Source: Polyangiaceae bacterium (GTDB lineage: Bacteria > Myxococcota_A > Polyangia > Polyangiales > Polyangiaceae). From it: DNA of 64,000 nucleotides. Positions within the stretch are counted from its first letter, which is position 1, and each line of letters begins with the position of its first letter. A program made the translations under genes and the position numbers. The notes under the pieces are model-generated. The model was not told the DNA's origin. It did no database searches and worked only from the letters and a program-made list of their open reading frames with translations. The stretch spans positions 1 to 64,000 of the forward strand of contig JADLEQ010000059.1 in assembly GCA_020846005.1 (NCBI GenBank). Direction: 5' to 3'. Shown here piece after piece: positions 44,587-50,394 of the stretch.

Positions 44587-44686
44587 GGCGTGTCGCGGGG
44601 GTCGGTCCGGGGCGCGCGGGCGATCCGCGGCGCGTGGCCGAGCTGGGCAGGTCGCCCCTCGGGCCACCGTGCCGGTGCAGCGCCGC

Positions 44687-44714
44687 GATATGGCGCGGGT
44701 CCCGCCCGCGTCAA
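44687..44714 (-). promoter_or_regulatory. Candidate housekeeping promoter for the sigma/anti-sigma operon
   Basis: On the minus strand TTGACG (44714-44709), a 16-nt spacer and CATATC (44692-44687). The predicted leader is about 90 nt. An ECF-type GGAAC promoter was not seen, so autoregulation is not evident. The rest of the 253-bp gap to the arsS-like gene (44587-44839) shows nothing else clear. Confidence 0.4.
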
Positions 44715-44839
44715 GCGACGGCCTCGGACCCGCCCCGCGTAACGTCTGGGCGGCTCCGCGGACCCACCCGCATGCAAGACCTCTGCGACCACCCCGCGGC
44801 GGGCCCCTCGCGCGTCGGGCGTCTGCTCCGAGGAGCGCG

Positions 44840-45832
44840 GTGACTCCGGCCCGGACGAACCTGCCGGTCGCGCGAGCCGAGTTCTCCGACGCGCTCGCGG
44901 CTCATGGCCTCGGGGTGCTCGCGCGCGAGCGCGTGCGGACGGTGCAGCTCAATGTCGGTAAGCGGTGCAACCTCGCGTGCCTCCACTGTCACGTGGACGC
45001 TGGGCCGTCGCGCGTGGAGGAGCTCGGCGCCGCCACCGCGGAGCGCGTGCTCGAGCTGCTCGCGGCGAGCCCGTCGGCCGACACCCTCGACCTCACCGGT
45101 GGCGCTCCGGAGGTCAATCCCAATTTCCACAGGCTCGTCGAGGGCGCGCGCCGGCTCGGTCGCCGCGTGATCGACCGGTGTAACCTGACCGTGCTGTTCG
45201 AGCCGGGGCTCGAGGGGCTGCCAGCCTTCCTCGCCGCCCACGAGGTGGAGGTCGTCGCCAGCCTCCCCTGCTACGGGCCGGAGAACGTCGAGCGGCAGCG
45301 CGGCAAGGGGGCGTTCGGCGCCAGCGTGCGGGCGCTCCAGCGCCTGAACGACCTCGGCTACGGGCAGACCGGCTCGCCGCTGGTGCTCCGGCTCGTCTAC
45401 AACCCGCTCGGGTCGTCGCTCCCGCCGCCCCAGCAGGCGCTCGAGGCCGAATACCGGGCGGAGCTGCGCCGGCGCTACGCGATCGAGTTCACCTCGCTCT
45501 CGACGATCACGAACCTGCCCATCGGGCGCTTCGCCCACGCGCTCGAGCGTGACGGTACGCTGCCCGCCTACGAGCAGCTCCTGGTGGAGCGGTTCAATCC
45601 GCGCACGGTGCCCGCGCTGATGTGCCGCTCGATGATCAGCGTCGGCTGGACGGGCGCGCTCCACGACTGCGATTTCCACCAGGTGCTCGAGCTGCCGCTG
45701 GCGGAGGGCCCCCGCTCGATCTGGGAGCTTCGGAGCTTCGAGGAGCTGGCGCGCACCCCGATCCGCGCGGCGGGGCACTGCTTCGGGTGCACGGCTGGAG
45801 CCGGGTCGAGCTGCGGAGGGGCGCTCACATGA
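44840..45832 (+). CDS. arsS: Radical SAM protein, arsenosugar biosynthesis type (ArsS-like)
   Basis: The 330-residue protein starts at GTG 44840 with AGGAG just upstream. The radical SAM cluster motif CNLACLHC (Cys-x3-Cys-x2-Cys) lies at about residues 43-50, followed by LDLTGGAPEVNPNF (GGE-like motif). The C-terminus is Cys-rich (LHDCDFHQ; HCFGCTAGAGSSCGG), as in the ArsS radical SAM/Cys-rich family, which makes the deoxyadenosyl-arsenical precursor of arsenosugars. Three further genes of the arsenosugar type follow with 4-nt overlaps. No arsenite methyltransferase (arsM) gene is present in the window. Confidence 0.85.
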   Translation: MTPARTNLPVARAEFSDALAAHGLGVLARERVRTVQLNVGKRCNLACLHCHVDAGPSRVEELGAATAERVLELLAASPSADTLDLTGGAPEVNPNFHRLVEGARRLGRRVIDRCNLTVLFEPGLEGLPAFLAAHEVEVVASLPCYGPENVERQRGKGAFGASVRALQRLNDLGYGQTGSPLVLRLVYNPLGSSLPPPQQALEAEYRAELRRRYAIEFTSLSTITNLPIGRFAHALERDGTLPAYEQLLVERFNPRTVPALMCRSMISVGWTGALHDCDFHQVLELPLAEGPRSIWELRSFEELARTPIRAAGHCFGCTAGAGSSCGGALT

Positions 45833-46512
45833 GCCGGGCGCAGCTCGCGCTGCCGGTGGGAGAGTGGGCGCTCGAGCTGGTGCAGTGGGCGCAGGCGGCC
45901 GGCGCGGCGGGCATGCTCGGGTTCGCCGGGGCGTACCTCGCCGCGACGGTGTTCCTTCTGCCGGGCTCCGTCCTCACGCTCGGCGCCGGCTTCGCCTACG
46001 GCCCGGCGCTCGGCACGCTCCTGGTCTCGCCCGTGAGCGTGGCCGGGGCGACGATCGCCTTCCTCATCGCTCGGTCCGCGGCGCGCGCGTGGGTGGCGGC
46101 CAGGGTCGCGCGCGACCCGCGCTTCACCGCGCTGGACGCCGCCCTCGGAGATCGCGGGCTGCAGCTCGTGCTGCTGCTCCGGCTGTCGCCGGCGTTCCCC
46201 TTCAACCTGCTGAACTACGCGCTCGGGCTGACGCGGGTGCGGTTCTGCGACTACGTGGTCGGATCGTGGCTGGGGATGCTGCCCGGCACCGCCCTGTTCG
46301 TCTACCTCGGGTCGGTCGCCACCAGCGCGAGCGAGCTCATCGCGGGGCGGCGTCCGGCGGCCGGCCCTGCGGAGGAGGCGTTCTACTGGGGGGGCCTCGC
46401 CGCGACCGTGCTGGTCACCATCCTCATCGGCCGCGCCGCCCGCCGGGAGCTCGAGGCTCGGCTGGCGGCGGCGCGAGCGGGTGAGGCGACCGGTTCGTCG
46501 GGGCCGCGGTGA
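45829..46512 (+). CDS. TVP38/TMEM64 (VTT-domain) membrane protein
   Basis: The 227-residue protein has about 5 hydrophobic helices. The VTT/DedA-like core is LAATVFLLPGSVLTLGAGFAYG (residues about 35-56) and LLLRLSPAFPFNLLNYALGLTRVRF (in pieces LLRLSPAFPFNLLNYALG), with the conserved R-x-SPxxPFxxxN motif. These proteins are proposed lipid scramblases or transporters. Four-nt overlaps on both sides tie it to the ArsS-like and glycosyltransferase genes, suggesting export or membrane handling of the product. Confidence 0.87.
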   Translation: MSRAQLALPVGEWALELVQWAQAAGAAGMLGFAGAYLAATVFLLPGSVLTLGAGFAYGPALGTLLVSPVSVAGATIAFLIARSAARAWVAARVARDPRFTALDAALGDRGLQLVLLLRLSPAFPFNLLNYALGLTRVRFCDYVVGSWLGMLPGTALFVYLGSVATSASELIAGRRPAAGPAEEAFYWGGLAATVLVTILIGRAARRELEARLAAARAGEATGSSGPR

Positions 46513-47234
46513 CGGCGTCGCGGCGGGCGGGTCCGCGGCGCCGGCAGGTGGGCTCGGGCGCCCCGGCGCAGGACACGACGATCTGCCTGTTCGCGAAGCC
46601 GCCCGTCGCCGGGATCGCGAAGACGAGGCTCGCGCCCGCGCTCGGCGCCGCTGGTGCGGCGGAGCTCGCGTTCGCCCTGTTGCAGGACACCTGGGCGGCC
46701 GTGGCGGGCTGCGCGTGGGCTCGCGGGGTCGTCGCCACGCCTGCGCCGGAGCGCTGGGACGTCGACCTGGCCGGGCGCCCCGAGGTGTGGGCGCAGGGGG
46801 AGGGCGACCTCGGCGCTCGTATGGAGCGCGTCGCGCGCCGGGCGCTCACCGAGTCGCGGCGGGTCCTCCTCGTGGGCGCCGACTCGCCGGGGATCCCCGC
46901 CGGGGCGCTGACCGACGCGCGGCGGCGCCTCGGCGCCGCCGACGCGGTGCTCTGCCCGACGCCGGACGGAGGCTTCTGGGCGCTCGGGCTGCGACGGTGC
47001 CCCGAGGGAGCGCTCGCCGAGGTCGAGTGGAGCGCGGCGACCACGCTGCGGGCGACGGAGGCCCGCCTCCAGCGGCTCGAGCTGCGCGTCGATCGTGGCG
47101 TCGCGTGGCTCGACGTCGACGTGCCGGCGGATCTCGCGCTCGCCGCCGCCGCGATCGCGCGCGGGGACGCGCTCGCTCCGGCGACGCGAGCGGCGCTCGA
47201 GCGGGGGCGCGCGCGGGGGTCGCCCTCGCCGTGA
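46509..47234 (+). CDS. Arsenosugar-cluster glycosyltransferase (DUF2064 / TIGR04282-like)
   Basis: The 241-residue protein has a nucleotidyl/glycosyl-transferase fold: ICLFAKPPVAGIAKTRLAPALG near the N-terminus (loop with AKPPxxGxxKTRL), VLLVGADSPGIPAGALTDA and CPTPDGGFWALGLR. This matches the DUF2064/TIGR04282 family often found in arsenosugar loci. GTG 46509 overlaps the VTT gene stop. Donor and acceptor are unknown. A further 4-nt overlap joins it to the next gene. Confidence 0.8.
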   Translation: MTASRRAGPRRRQVGSGAPAQDTTICLFAKPPVAGIAKTRLAPALGAAGAAELAFALLQDTWAAVAGCAWARGVVATPAPERWDVDLAGRPEVWAQGEGDLGARMERVARRALTESRRVLLVGADSPGIPAGALTDARRRLGAADAVLCPTPDGGFWALGLRRCPEGALAEVEWSAATTLRATEARLQRLELRVDRGVAWLDVDVPADLALAAAAIARGDALAPATRAALERGRARGSPSP

Positions 47235-47932
47235 CGGCGCGCGCCGCGATCTCGGTCGTCGTGCCCGTCCTCGACGAGGAGCGGCGCGTCACGGAGCTGC
47301 TCCGTCACCTGGAGGCCGTGCTCCCCGGAGCGGAGCGGATCGTGGTGGACGGCGGCAGCCGCGACGACACCTGCCGGCGCGTCGAGGACGCGGGGGGGGC
47401 GCGCCTCGTGCGCGCGGCGCGAGGCAGGGCGGTACAGCTGAACGCGGGTGCCGCGGTCGCGCGCGGGGACGTGCTGCTGTTCCTCCACGCCGACGTGCGG
47501 CTCCCCGCGGACGCTGGCGAGTGGATGTCCCGCGCGCTCGCCGACCCCGGAGTGGTCGCGGGCGCGTTCCGCACGTGGACCGTGGCGGACGGTCCGTCGC
47601 GGCCGCCGTGGGCGCCGCTGCTCCACCTGGCCGACCTCCGCTCGCGGTACACGCGCCGCCCCTACGGCGACCAGGGGCTGTTCGTGCGCGCGCGCGTGTT
47701 CCATGAGGTGGGAGGGTATCCGAGCCAGGCGCTGATGGAGGACTACGAGCTCTCGCGGCGCCTCGGGCGCGTGGGCAACGTCCGCATCGTGCCCGCGCGC
47801 GTGCAGGTGTCGGGCCGGCGCTTCCTCGCGCGGCCCTGGTTCTTCACAGCGGTCGTGAACCTCTTCCCGGTGCTCTATCGCCTGGGGGTGCCCCCGGAGG
47901 CGCTCGCGAGGCTCTACGCCAACGTCCGCTGA
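47231..47932 (+). CDS. Family 2 glycosyltransferase, arsenosugar-cluster type (TIGR04283-like)
   Basis: The 233-residue GT-A protein has ISVVVPVLDEERRVTELL, IVVDGGSRDDTCRR, LLFLHADVRLPADAGEWM (the DxD-like HAD motif) and YGDQGLFVRARVFHEVGGY, then MEDYELSRRL (catalytic ED). This is the pattern of the TIGR04283 glycosyltransferases that accompany ArsS. It has a C-terminal hydrophobic patch (FFTAVVNLFPVLYRLG). GTG 47231 overlaps the preceding stop. Last gene of the four-gene cluster. Confidence 0.87.
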   Translation: MTARAAISVVVPVLDEERRVTELLRHLEAVLPGAERIVVDGGSRDDTCRRVEDAGGARLVRAARGRAVQLNAGAAVARGDVLLFLHADVRLPADAGEWMSRALADPGVVAGAFRTWTVADGPSRPPWAPLLHLADLRSRYTRRPYGDQGLFVRARVFHEVGGYPSQALMEDYELSRRLGRVGNVRIVPARVQVSGRRFLARPWFFTAVVNLFPVLYRLGVPPEALARLYANVR

Positions 47933-47975: not shown

Positions 47976-47999
47976 TTGCCGCGCGCGGCGCCAGGTGCG

Positions 48000-48686
48000 A
48001 TGCAGCGATCGAGGCCGCCCTTGGAGCTCCTGATCGTTCGTCACGGCGAGAGCACCGGCAACGCGGAGGGGCGCATGCAGGGGCGGCAGGACTGGCCCCT
48101 CTCGGAGCGGGGGCGCGAGCAGGCGCGCGGCCTGGGGGAGTTCCTCGGCGCGCGGGGCGTGACGCTCGCTGCCGTCTACTCGTCGCCGCTCTCGCGCGCG
48201 CTCGAGACGGCCCGGATCGTCGCTGCGCGCGCCGGGGCGCCGGAGCCGGTGACGGAGCCGGAGCTCGCCGAGATCGACGCGGGGGGCCTCGAGGGGCTCG
48301 ACCGTGCCGGCATGGAGGAGCGCTTCCCGGAGTTCCTCCGCCGCGACATCACCACGTTGGGGGACTTCGGCGCGTTCGGCGGCGAGGGGTACGAGGCCGT
48401 GCAGGCCCGGATCCAGCGGATGCGCGAGCGGCTCGAGGCGCGGCATCGCGAGGCCGGGGATCGCGTGATGCTCGTCGCGCACGGCGGCATCAACTTCCAG
48501 CTCGTGAAGTCGCTGATCTGCGTCCCCGTCCCGCGGGTGTGCATCCTGCGGTTCGGCAACTGCAGCGCCACGCTCGTCGTGATGCGGGAGCGCCGCGGGA
48601 CGTGGCTCGGGGAGATCGCCTGGCACCTGCCGATCGAGCTCGTGGGGGGCTCGAGCGGCGACGGCACGGCGGCGCTGTTCCGGTGA
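48000..48686 (+). CDS. Histidine phosphatase (phosphoglycerate mutase-like)
   Basis: The 228-residue protein has the catalytic LLIVRHGESTGNAEGRMQG (RHG with nucleophilic His, about residues 12-30), YSSPLSRALETARIV and the second catalytic His in MLVAHGGINFQLV. The acidic proton donor lies in EIDAGGLEGL. It hydrolyses a small phosphoester; the substrate is not predictable. ATG 48000 is preferred over ATG 47976 from the AGGTG before it and family N-termini. It could dephosphorylate a product of the upstream cluster, but it also adjoins an unrelated lipoprotein. Confidence 0.9.
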   Translation: MQRSRPPLELLIVRHGESTGNAEGRMQGRQDWPLSERGREQARGLGEFLGARGVTLAAVYSSPLSRALETARIVAARAGAPEPVTEPELAEIDAGGLEGLDRAGMEERFPEFLRRDITTLGDFGAFGGEGYEAVQARIQRMRERLEARHREAGDRVMLVAHGGINFQLVKSLICVPVPRVCILRFGNCSATLVVMRERRGTWLGEIAWHLPIELVGGSSGDGTAALFR

Positions 48687-48757: not shown

Positions 48758-49699
48758 GTGCGACTCGCGCCTCTCCTGGTCGTCGTGGCGCAGGTCGCGT
48801 GCGCGAGCGACCCGGCCACCGGGGGCGCCCCGCCGTTGTCCGCAGGCGGGGTCGCGGGCGCCTCGGGCGCGGCCGGCGCGTCGGGGTCGGGCGGGGCGGC
48901 CGCGTGCACCCCGGGTCCGGGGGAGACGTGCGTGCGGGAGCTCCGCGGGCGCGTGGTGGACACGAGCGGCGCGCCGGTGGCCGGCGTCTTCGCCAGCGTG
49001 TGCGGGGCCGTCTGTTACGCGCCGCCGCCCGGTGAGGTCACGCCGGCGGACGGCACGTTCGCGTTCCCGGTCGGCGCGCCGCTCAGCCCGTCGGAGTTCT
49101 CGACCCTCGTGCATGGGCGGCCCGTGTGGGCCGGCTTCTATCTCCCGCTGCCCGCCACGCTCACCGCGACGCTCGATCTCGGGGAGCTGCCGGTGGTGGC
49201 GCTTCCCCCGTCCGGGCCGCGCCTCGCGGTGAAGGGCGACGGCGCGCCCGCCCAGCGAGCGGTGTCGGGCGAGCTCACCCTGATCGTCCCGGCGGGCACG
49301 GAGCTCCGCCTCGACGTGGAGGACGCAGCGCTCGGCGCCGCGGGCCAGGAGCTCAAGGTGGCGCGCGTCCCGGCGGCGGCGCTCGGGCGCTTCGTCCCCG
49401 CGGAGCTCGGCGCCGTAGCCGCGTGGGCGATCTCGCCGTTCGAGGCCACCCTGCGCGTCGTGGCGACGGGCGAGCCCGGGCTCGCGCAGGTCGAGCTCGA
49501 GAACGTGACCGCGCTCCCCGCGGGCACCCGCGTCGAGCTGCTCGCCCTGGGCTCGTACCTCTTCCCCGAGTGGGTGCCGCCGGCGACCTGGGCCAGCGTC
49601 GCCGCCGGCGCCGTGTCGGCGGATGGCGCGCGGGTGGAGCTTGACCCGGGGCAGGGGCTGCGCCATCTGACGGCCGTGGCCGTGAAGGTGTCCCCGTGA
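48758..49699 (+). CDS. Lipoprotein with carboxypeptidase-regulatory-like domain
   Basis: The GTG at 48758, 5 nt after a purine-rich GGGGGAG, gives a 313-residue protein with a lipoprotein signal ending AQVAC. After a Gly/Ala linker, CVRELRGRVVDTSGAPVAGVF starts a small beta-sandwich of the carboxypeptidase-regulatory type; two Cys flank a loop (VCGAVCYAPPP). The rest is strand-rich. A longer start at 48683 overlaps the phosphatase stop but would put 25 residues before the signal. Its stop overlaps the start of the UGA-containing redoxin gene (GTGA), so the two are probably co-translated and may form a secreted pair. Confidence 0.75.
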   Translation: MRLAPLLVVVAQVACASDPATGGAPPLSAGGVAGASGAAGASGSGGAAACTPGPGETCVRELRGRVVDTSGAPVAGVFASVCGAVCYAPPPGEVTPADGTFAFPVGAPLSPSEFSTLVHGRPVWAGFYLPLPATLTATLDLGELPVVALPPSGPRLAVKGDGAPAQRAVSGELTLIVPAGTELRLDVEDAALGAAGQELKVARVPAAALGRFVPAELGAVAAWAISPFEATLRVVATGEPGLAQVELENVTALPAGTRVELLALGSYLFPEWVPPATWASVAAGAVSADGARVELDPGQGLRHLTAVAVKVSP

Positions 49700-50394
49700 G
49701 CCGCGTAGCGCCGATTGTGATCGCGTGGGCGCTGGTCGCGAGTGGGTGCGGCGAGTCCGAGTCGGCAGGGCGGGCTGGGGCCCCCGGCGGCACGGCGGGT
49801 CAGGGCGCGGAGGCCGGCGCGGCGGGCGTCAGCGGGGCGTCGGGCGCCGGCGGCGCGTCGGGCGCCGGCGGCGCGGCGGGAGCCTCCAGCGCGTACCCAG
49901 CGGGCCCCTACGGCGCCGCGGTCGGCGACGTGCTCGCCGACTATGCCTTCGCCGGCTACGTGAACCTCGACGGCGCGTCGCTCTCCACGGCGCTGCCTTA
50001 CTCGGATCCGGTCACGTTCGGCCAGCTCCGGCAGTCGGGGAGGAGCCACGCGCTCGTCCACCTCTCGGAGTTCTTTTGACCCGGCTGTCGCAGCGCTGCC
50101 CAGGTCCTGGGAGCCAGTAGCCAGCCAGCGCAAGACTCCGGGGGGCTCGTCGTCGAGGTGCTGCTGAGCGGCGCGCTCGATCCGTGGGTCGACACCTACG
50201 ACCTCTCCGTCACGGCCCTGTCCCCTGCGCCCGGCTCCACCTTCGGCGCCGATCTCGGCGGGCGCGAGTGGGCGTACGTCGTCGAGCTCTCGACGATGCG
50301 CATCGTGTGGAAGGGCTTCGGCTCGTACGGCCCCACCACCAACTCAAGCGCCCTCCAAGGGTTGGTGGAGCTCGAGAAGGCGCTCGCGCCGTGA
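49696..50394 (+). CDS. Probable selenoprotein: lipid-anchored redoxin with Sec-Pro-Gly-Cys active site
   Basis: Read through one in-frame TGA (50077-50079), the frame from GTG 49696 to the stop at 50394 encodes 232 residues. A lipoprotein signal ends LVASGC (Cys18), followed by a Gly/Ala/Ser linker to about residue 68 and a thioredoxin-like domain: VGDVLADYAFAGYVNL, SHALVHLSEFF, then the TGA codon as residue 128, Pro-Gly-Cys131, a helix (RSAAQVLGASS), strand GLVVEVLL, and WAYVVELSTMRIVWKGFG. The TGA sits exactly where the first Cys of a CxxC redox motif belongs. A bulged hairpin with apical GGUC follows at bacterial SECIS distance (50095-50114). Coding character continues unchanged past the TGA with no other lesion, which favours selenocysteine over a pseudogene. 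A stop at 50079 would leave a useless half-domain. SelA/B/C/D are not in the window. Likely role: extracytoplasmic thiol/peroxide redox chemistry. Confidence 0.78.
50095..50114 (+). promoter_or_regulatory. Candidate bacterial SECIS element
   Basis: GCU (50095-50097), bulged G (50098), CCCAG (50099-50103), GUC (50104-50106), CUGGG (50107-50111), AGC (50112-50114): an 8-bp stem with one bulged base on the 5' side and an apical GGUC. In E. coli fdhF the SECIS also has a 5'-side bulge and a GGUC loop. The GGUC begins 23 nt after the TGA, inside the usual 16-37 nt window. The bulged base is G, not U as in fdhF. Confidence 0.65.

Follow-up and report, generated by a model that had tools for sequence, protein, structure and literature searches.

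An in-frame UGA very likely read as selenocysteine in a probably lipid-anchored, thioredoxin-fold protein of myxobacteria

The window (the whole 64,000-nucleotide stretch of Polyangiaceae bacterium contig JADLEQ010000059.1 analysed here) raises the question of whether a TGA codon in the middle of a redoxin-like frame ends the protein or is read as selenocysteine (Sec). The frame, at 49696-50394, contains exactly one internal TGA (50077-50079, codon 128), where a standard ORF caller terminates the gene (at 50079), and continues to a terminal TGA at 50392-50394; the active-site context is LVHLSEFF-U-PGC. Re-reading the frame bears out the original prediction on two points, namely that a lone TGA at 50077 falls on the first Cys of a CxxC motif (SEFF-U-PGC) and that the frame is unbroken past it as far as its own stop. 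The N-terminus is a short hydrophobic leader ending in ASGC, with the lipobox judged by eye; leaders of relatives also end in Cys, and judging from this motif the protein is probably lipid-anchored. The gene and its parts are as follows.

49696-50394, plus strand: predicted selenoprotein gene, encoding a probably lipid-anchored UxxC thioredoxin-fold protein of 232 aa; GTG start, TGA stop
49696-49749, plus strand: predicted signal peptide and lipobox (MSRVAPIVIAWALVASGC), with the candidate lipidated Cys at 49747-49749; from the motif and similar relatives
49750-49893, plus strand: Gly/Ala/Ser-rich low-complexity linker; linkers of relatives are G/S- or D/A-rich
49894-50391, plus strand: folded domain, starting at YPAGPYG and running to the C-terminus, with a predicted thioredoxin fold; from AlphaFold2 and Foldseek/VIA matches
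50077-50079, plus strand: UGA codon very likely read as selenocysteine, first position of UPGC; the TGA/Cys column of the family
50086-50088, plus strand: second (resolving) Cys of UPGC, invariant in the family alignment
50095-50114, plus strand: putative bSECIS hairpin with an apical GGUC and a bulged G; from the sequence and a family-level test

When homologues were aligned and the active-site column was inspected for Cys or TGA, TGA was found in 40 distinct genes and TGC or TGT in 25 (duplicates removed), with no other codon present. The Sec motifs of the family include UPGC, UPAC, UGSC, USAC, USSC, UTSC, UGGC, UGNC and UGKC. A phylum search of 284 genomes finds relatives in 17 besides the host, the strong ones mostly carrying just one TGA, and a search of GTDB contigs adds further relatives, every one in myxobacterial or 'Deltaproteobacteria' records; by profile search the wider family is present in 129 of the 184 genomes of the host's order, among the matches listed. 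A sequencing or assembly error at 50077, with TGC or TGT as the real codon, is conceivable in principle as a single-base change in a draft genome of 119 contigs, but is so very unlikely as to be negligible because this codon is also TGA in relatives from more than 20 other genomes, which come from other species and were assembled independently.

A pseudogene or true stop at 50077, from which only a truncated lipoprotein lacking redox function would be made, agrees with the end assigned by the standard ORF caller and with a hairpin that is not significant alone (see below). Against it stand the 40 distinct genes from more than 20 genomes with TGA at this codon, always in the active-site Cys column, and the conservation of the part after the TGA, which is as strong as that of the part before: identity to near relatives is about equal on either side of the UGA (for L036, 45% before and 50% after), unlike what a pseudogene or a true stop would give. 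We regard it as highly improbable. Readthrough with Sec at this codon, as we prefer to interpret the locus, places the gene in a family with a mixed history, since a quick tree requires six Sec/Cys changes, at least three of them forced by well-supported branches. Among individual members, L046 (UGKC) is closely related to L044 and L045 (CGKC), and the Cys-form L044 still has the hairpin in the expected position, which fits a recent switch between Sec and Cys. The draft genome G236 has 18 family-profile matches listed, six with an in-frame TGA, located on several contigs, which constitutes a lineage-specific expansion.

The host genome (5.7 Mb in 119 contigs, 99% complete) was searched for the Sec machinery, and all components score over cut-off: selA (467 bits) and selD (325 bits) exceed their curated cut-offs, selB has 247 bits against a cut-off of 242, and a tRNA-Sec with a UCA anticodon has 67.2 bits against a gathering score of 47. 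This complete set also speaks against a pseudogene. The host selD (L010 1531, G000:C19) itself contains a UGA (SSGGUAAK) followed by a strong hairpin, and the host thus encodes one more selenoprotein, from an established family. Within the order, selA is found in 21 of 23 genomes with TGA members versus 34 of 161 others, among the matches listed (Fisher 6e-11); the two TGA-member genomes without selA in the assembly are both drafts and each has a tRNA-Sec over cut-off, and selA and/or tRNA-Sec is present in all 23 order genomes with a TGA member listed. Outside the host's order, G153 has a TGA member together with selA and tRNA-Sec.

The same data bear on a changed code, in which UGA would stand for some other amino acid, for instance Trp. 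Nothing beyond the open frame favours this, and it is barely credible given that TGA also stops the Sec gene (50392-50394), its upstream partner and the ArsS gene of the window, that the residue of homologues at the column is Cys and not Trp, and that the host genome encodes tRNA-Sec with selA, selB and selD. We consider it nearly certain, on comparative sequence grounds, that UGA 50077 is read as Sec.

The ArsS gene is part of an arsenosugar-type cluster at 44669-47932 of the window, comprising an ArsS radical SAM protein, a VTT-domain protein and a TIGR04283 glycosyltransferase (207 bits). In some other organisms ArsS contains Sec; the window ArsS, which matches TIGR04167 'radical SAM (seleno)protein ArsS' with 407 bits, is the Cys form (SSCGGAL), and Sec and Cys choices therefore differ within one window.

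The bulged hairpin that had been predicted at 50095-50114, with an apical GGUC starting 23 nt past the TGA, is found exactly there. It is composed of GCU (50095-50097), the bulged G (50098), CCCAG (50099-50103), GUC (50104-50106), CUGGG (50107-50111) and AGC (50112-50114); the GUC loop is 24 nt from the UGA and the energy is -10.8 kcal/mol. These values fall within the bSECIS rules of a 2026 selenoprotein catalogue (loop of 3-9 nt, stem of 4-16 bp, a G among the first two loop bases, a distance of 16-37 nt to the UGA, MFE <= -7.5; PMC13188914). The energy is reached in 106 of 300 synonymous shuffles, which is not significant or exceptional for a GC-rich gene, so this hairpin is no evidence alone and its weight comes only from the family. 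Qualifying hairpins, by the same rules but with the spacing narrowed to 20-25 nt and E <= -7.5, occur in 37 of the 40 TGA genes versus 5 of the 25 Cys genes. The TGA genes fold better than their synonymous-codon shuffles (Wilcoxon p 3e-12), and the Cys genes show no such excess (0.58). Because the member genes are related, these p-values and the Fisher value above overstate the independent evidence. An earlier hairpin test with no fixed position split TGA and Cys genes less clearly. The stems lie in three registers and two-sided changes keep the pairing, as in the host gene's subclade, where positions 22/30 after the UGA have switched from C-G to G-C; pairing holds in 94% of the cells of the 25-sequence register and in 25-43% when that register is slid. 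The apical-loop Arg codon is CGU or CGG in 28/29 TGA genes versus 102/350 in the family at large. An Rfam scan of the window gives no match, the Rfam library being no test for bSECIS elements. Of the three independent signals that the original prediction had counted, position and continuity stand, while the hairpin is weak by itself and that tally was somewhat overstated.

Modelling with AlphaFold2 from a 38-row alignment yields a thioredoxin fold (pLDDT 95.0, pTM 0.91) in which Sec, residue 69 of the model, stands directly before helix 70-82. In a PDB profile search with the family ResA comes first (4nmu, 3.8e-9), Foldseek with the model returns ResA (prob 1.00), CcmG and Bcp, and VIA-align gives a Z of 15.2 to ResA with an rmsd of 2.3 over 135 residues. 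The complete redoxin fold that had been proposed is thus recovered with the family profile and in the AlphaFold2 model, but not from the lone sequence, which no Pfam or NCBIfam redoxin model matches; the family alignment is needed. Among 38 family members the commonest Pfam match is AhpC-TSA (19/38), and Redoxin matches 5/38. By alignment, the cis-Pro position is occupied by Glu or Asp in 36 of the 40 Sec members (Glu in the host protein) and by Pro in none, and it is Pro in 12 of the 25 Cys members, both host Cys paralogues included. As the cis-Pro is absent, we term the protein TlpA/ResA-like and not a TlpA/ResA member. A thioredoxin-fold envelope redox protein is very probably what the gene encodes.

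Whether such a protein would reduce disulfides or peroxides is a finer distinction. A peroxiredoxin-like or AhpE-like Sec peroxidase, with Sec as peroxidatic and the motif's second Cys as resolving residue, is consistent with VIA-align Z values of 14-15 to the peroxiredoxins Bcp, AhpE and AhpC, which are similar to that for ResA, with the prevalence of AhpC-TSA among the Pfam matches, and with the lack of the cis-Pro in 40/40 Sec members. However, the family motif is UxxC/CxxC and the peroxiredoxin motif PxxxTxxC/U is absent from the protein, whose active site is VHLSEFFUPGC, and the best PDB sequence-profile matches are thiol-disulfide oxidoreductases of the ResA type; we view a peroxidase as unlikely. 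A disulfide reductase is the assignment towards which we lean, the reductase direction being taken from these resemblances.

The gene immediately upstream offers a candidate substrate.

48758-49699, plus strand: partner gene, encoding a predicted lipoprotein of an undescribed family with a conserved CGxxC; the start codon is guessed within a frame open from 48539

The CGxxC of the window copy is CGAVC at 49001-49015. The partner and Sec genes overlap by 4 nt (GTGA), and a possible Shine-Dalgarno sequence, AAGG, precedes the Sec start. Of the 40 Sec members, 18 have a partner homologue immediately upstream, and several Cys members have one nearby; in the neighbourhoods of the 40 Sec members, none was found for the USAC/UGSC subclades. 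All 28 partners covering the region have the CGxxC (CGxxxC in one), and 6/28 have a CarboxypepD_reg-like part. The partner model has a confident fold (pLDDT 93.4), and its structure matches to teneurin, pilins and CnaB have low TM-scores that indicate no function; the window copy has no Pfam match and searches gave no informative full-length match. For the partner, a copper site resembling that of Sco, made up of CxxxC and the HGRP His, was considered and dropped, as this His is missing in several partners. Further upstream of the pair, at 47976-48686 of the window, is a histidine phosphatase gene (PF00300, 9e-47), whose place is kept only in the close subclade (L032, L033, L035).

Taken as a whole, we hold it highly probable that the locus encodes a Sec-containing envelope lipoprotein with a thioredoxin fold, most likely a ResA/TlpA-like reductase, with Sec insertion and lipidation deduced from the genes and motifs described above. 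SelB and Sec-tRNA(UCA), guided by the hairpin ~23 nt downstream, would insert Sec at UGA 50077, and the protein would then be exported and lipid-anchored. The UPGC pair would carry out thiol/selenol-disulfide exchange, most likely as a ResA/TlpA-like reductase, and its client may be the CGxxC lipoprotein encoded just upstream, whose gene is probably translationally coupled to the Sec gene. We propose this neighbour as a redox client only tentatively, from the gene pairing and the cysteines. A broader and equally tentative idea is that redoxin and CGxxC lipoprotein might act together on the myxobacterial envelope as a dedicated, Sec-dependent pair of redox proteins, in which the redoxin, with an acidic residue in place of the cis-proline, would specifically reduce, or exchange metal with, the neighbour's CGxxC, in a redoxin family that has duplicated to as many as six Sec copies within a single genome and undergone several Sec/Cys switches.

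The selenoprotein family added by this locus comes from Myxococcota, whose name is absent from two reviews of prokaryotic selenoproteins, and is easily missed since ordinary gene callers end such genes at the UGA. Its many Sec/Cys pairs and its cis-proline loss provide a natural series for asking what retains Sec at a site of disulfide exchange, and the conserved CGxxC neighbour is a concrete candidate client.

The original prediction of a probable new selenoprotein agrees with what is catalogued: none of the NCBIfam selenoprotein models matches the Sec protein, and the 119 families of the 2026 catalogue include no obvious match to it and none described as a myxobacterial lipoprotein, the comparison being by description (PMC13188914). 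Neither 'lipoprotein' nor 'myxo' occurs in the main text of that paper, and the family is not described in titles or abstracts of the open-access literature on selenoproteins in myxobacteria, Myxococcota, Sorangium and Anaeromyxobacter. NCBIfam family NF041054 (ResA-like WAxxUGC motif-containing protein) is likewise a ResA-like selenoprotein family and weakly matches 1/38 members (E 5e-4), but has its Sec in a UGC motif; the Sec protein has UxxC and no NF041054 match. Two host Cys paralogues (G000:C28:132821-133384 and 136865-137371) belong to the same wider family (profile E-values 4e-29 and 1.5e-30) and differ in their CGYC and CLAC sites, in keeping the cis-Pro and in falling within the Cys clade of the tree; no partner gene was found beside them. 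Their contig also carries selB, at a distance of ~11-15 kb (G000:C28:120411-137371).

With ResA, TlpA and CcmG (DsbE) the Sec protein shares a thioredoxin fold, a predicted membrane anchor on the envelope side and an xxC-type active site. It differs from them in having Sec for the first Cys, in lacking the Trp before the motif and in possessing an extra YPAGPYG element, and its Sec relatives have Glu/Asp (36/40) and never Pro at the cis-Pro position. Several of the 119 catalogued families are UxxC thioredoxin-fold proteins, listed in Table 1 as 'Redoxin family protein' (PF08534), 'Prx-like thiol:disulfide oxidoreductase' (PF00578) and 'Thiol-disulfide isomerase-like protein' (cd02966) (PMC13188914), so this kind of selenoprotein is already known. 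The Sec protein has the same combination of thioredoxin fold and UxxC, and was set beside these entries, 'Redoxin family protein' included, by description. As far as compared by description and with the NCBIfam models, it is probably a new myxobacterial variant among the UxxC thioredoxin-fold selenoproteins.
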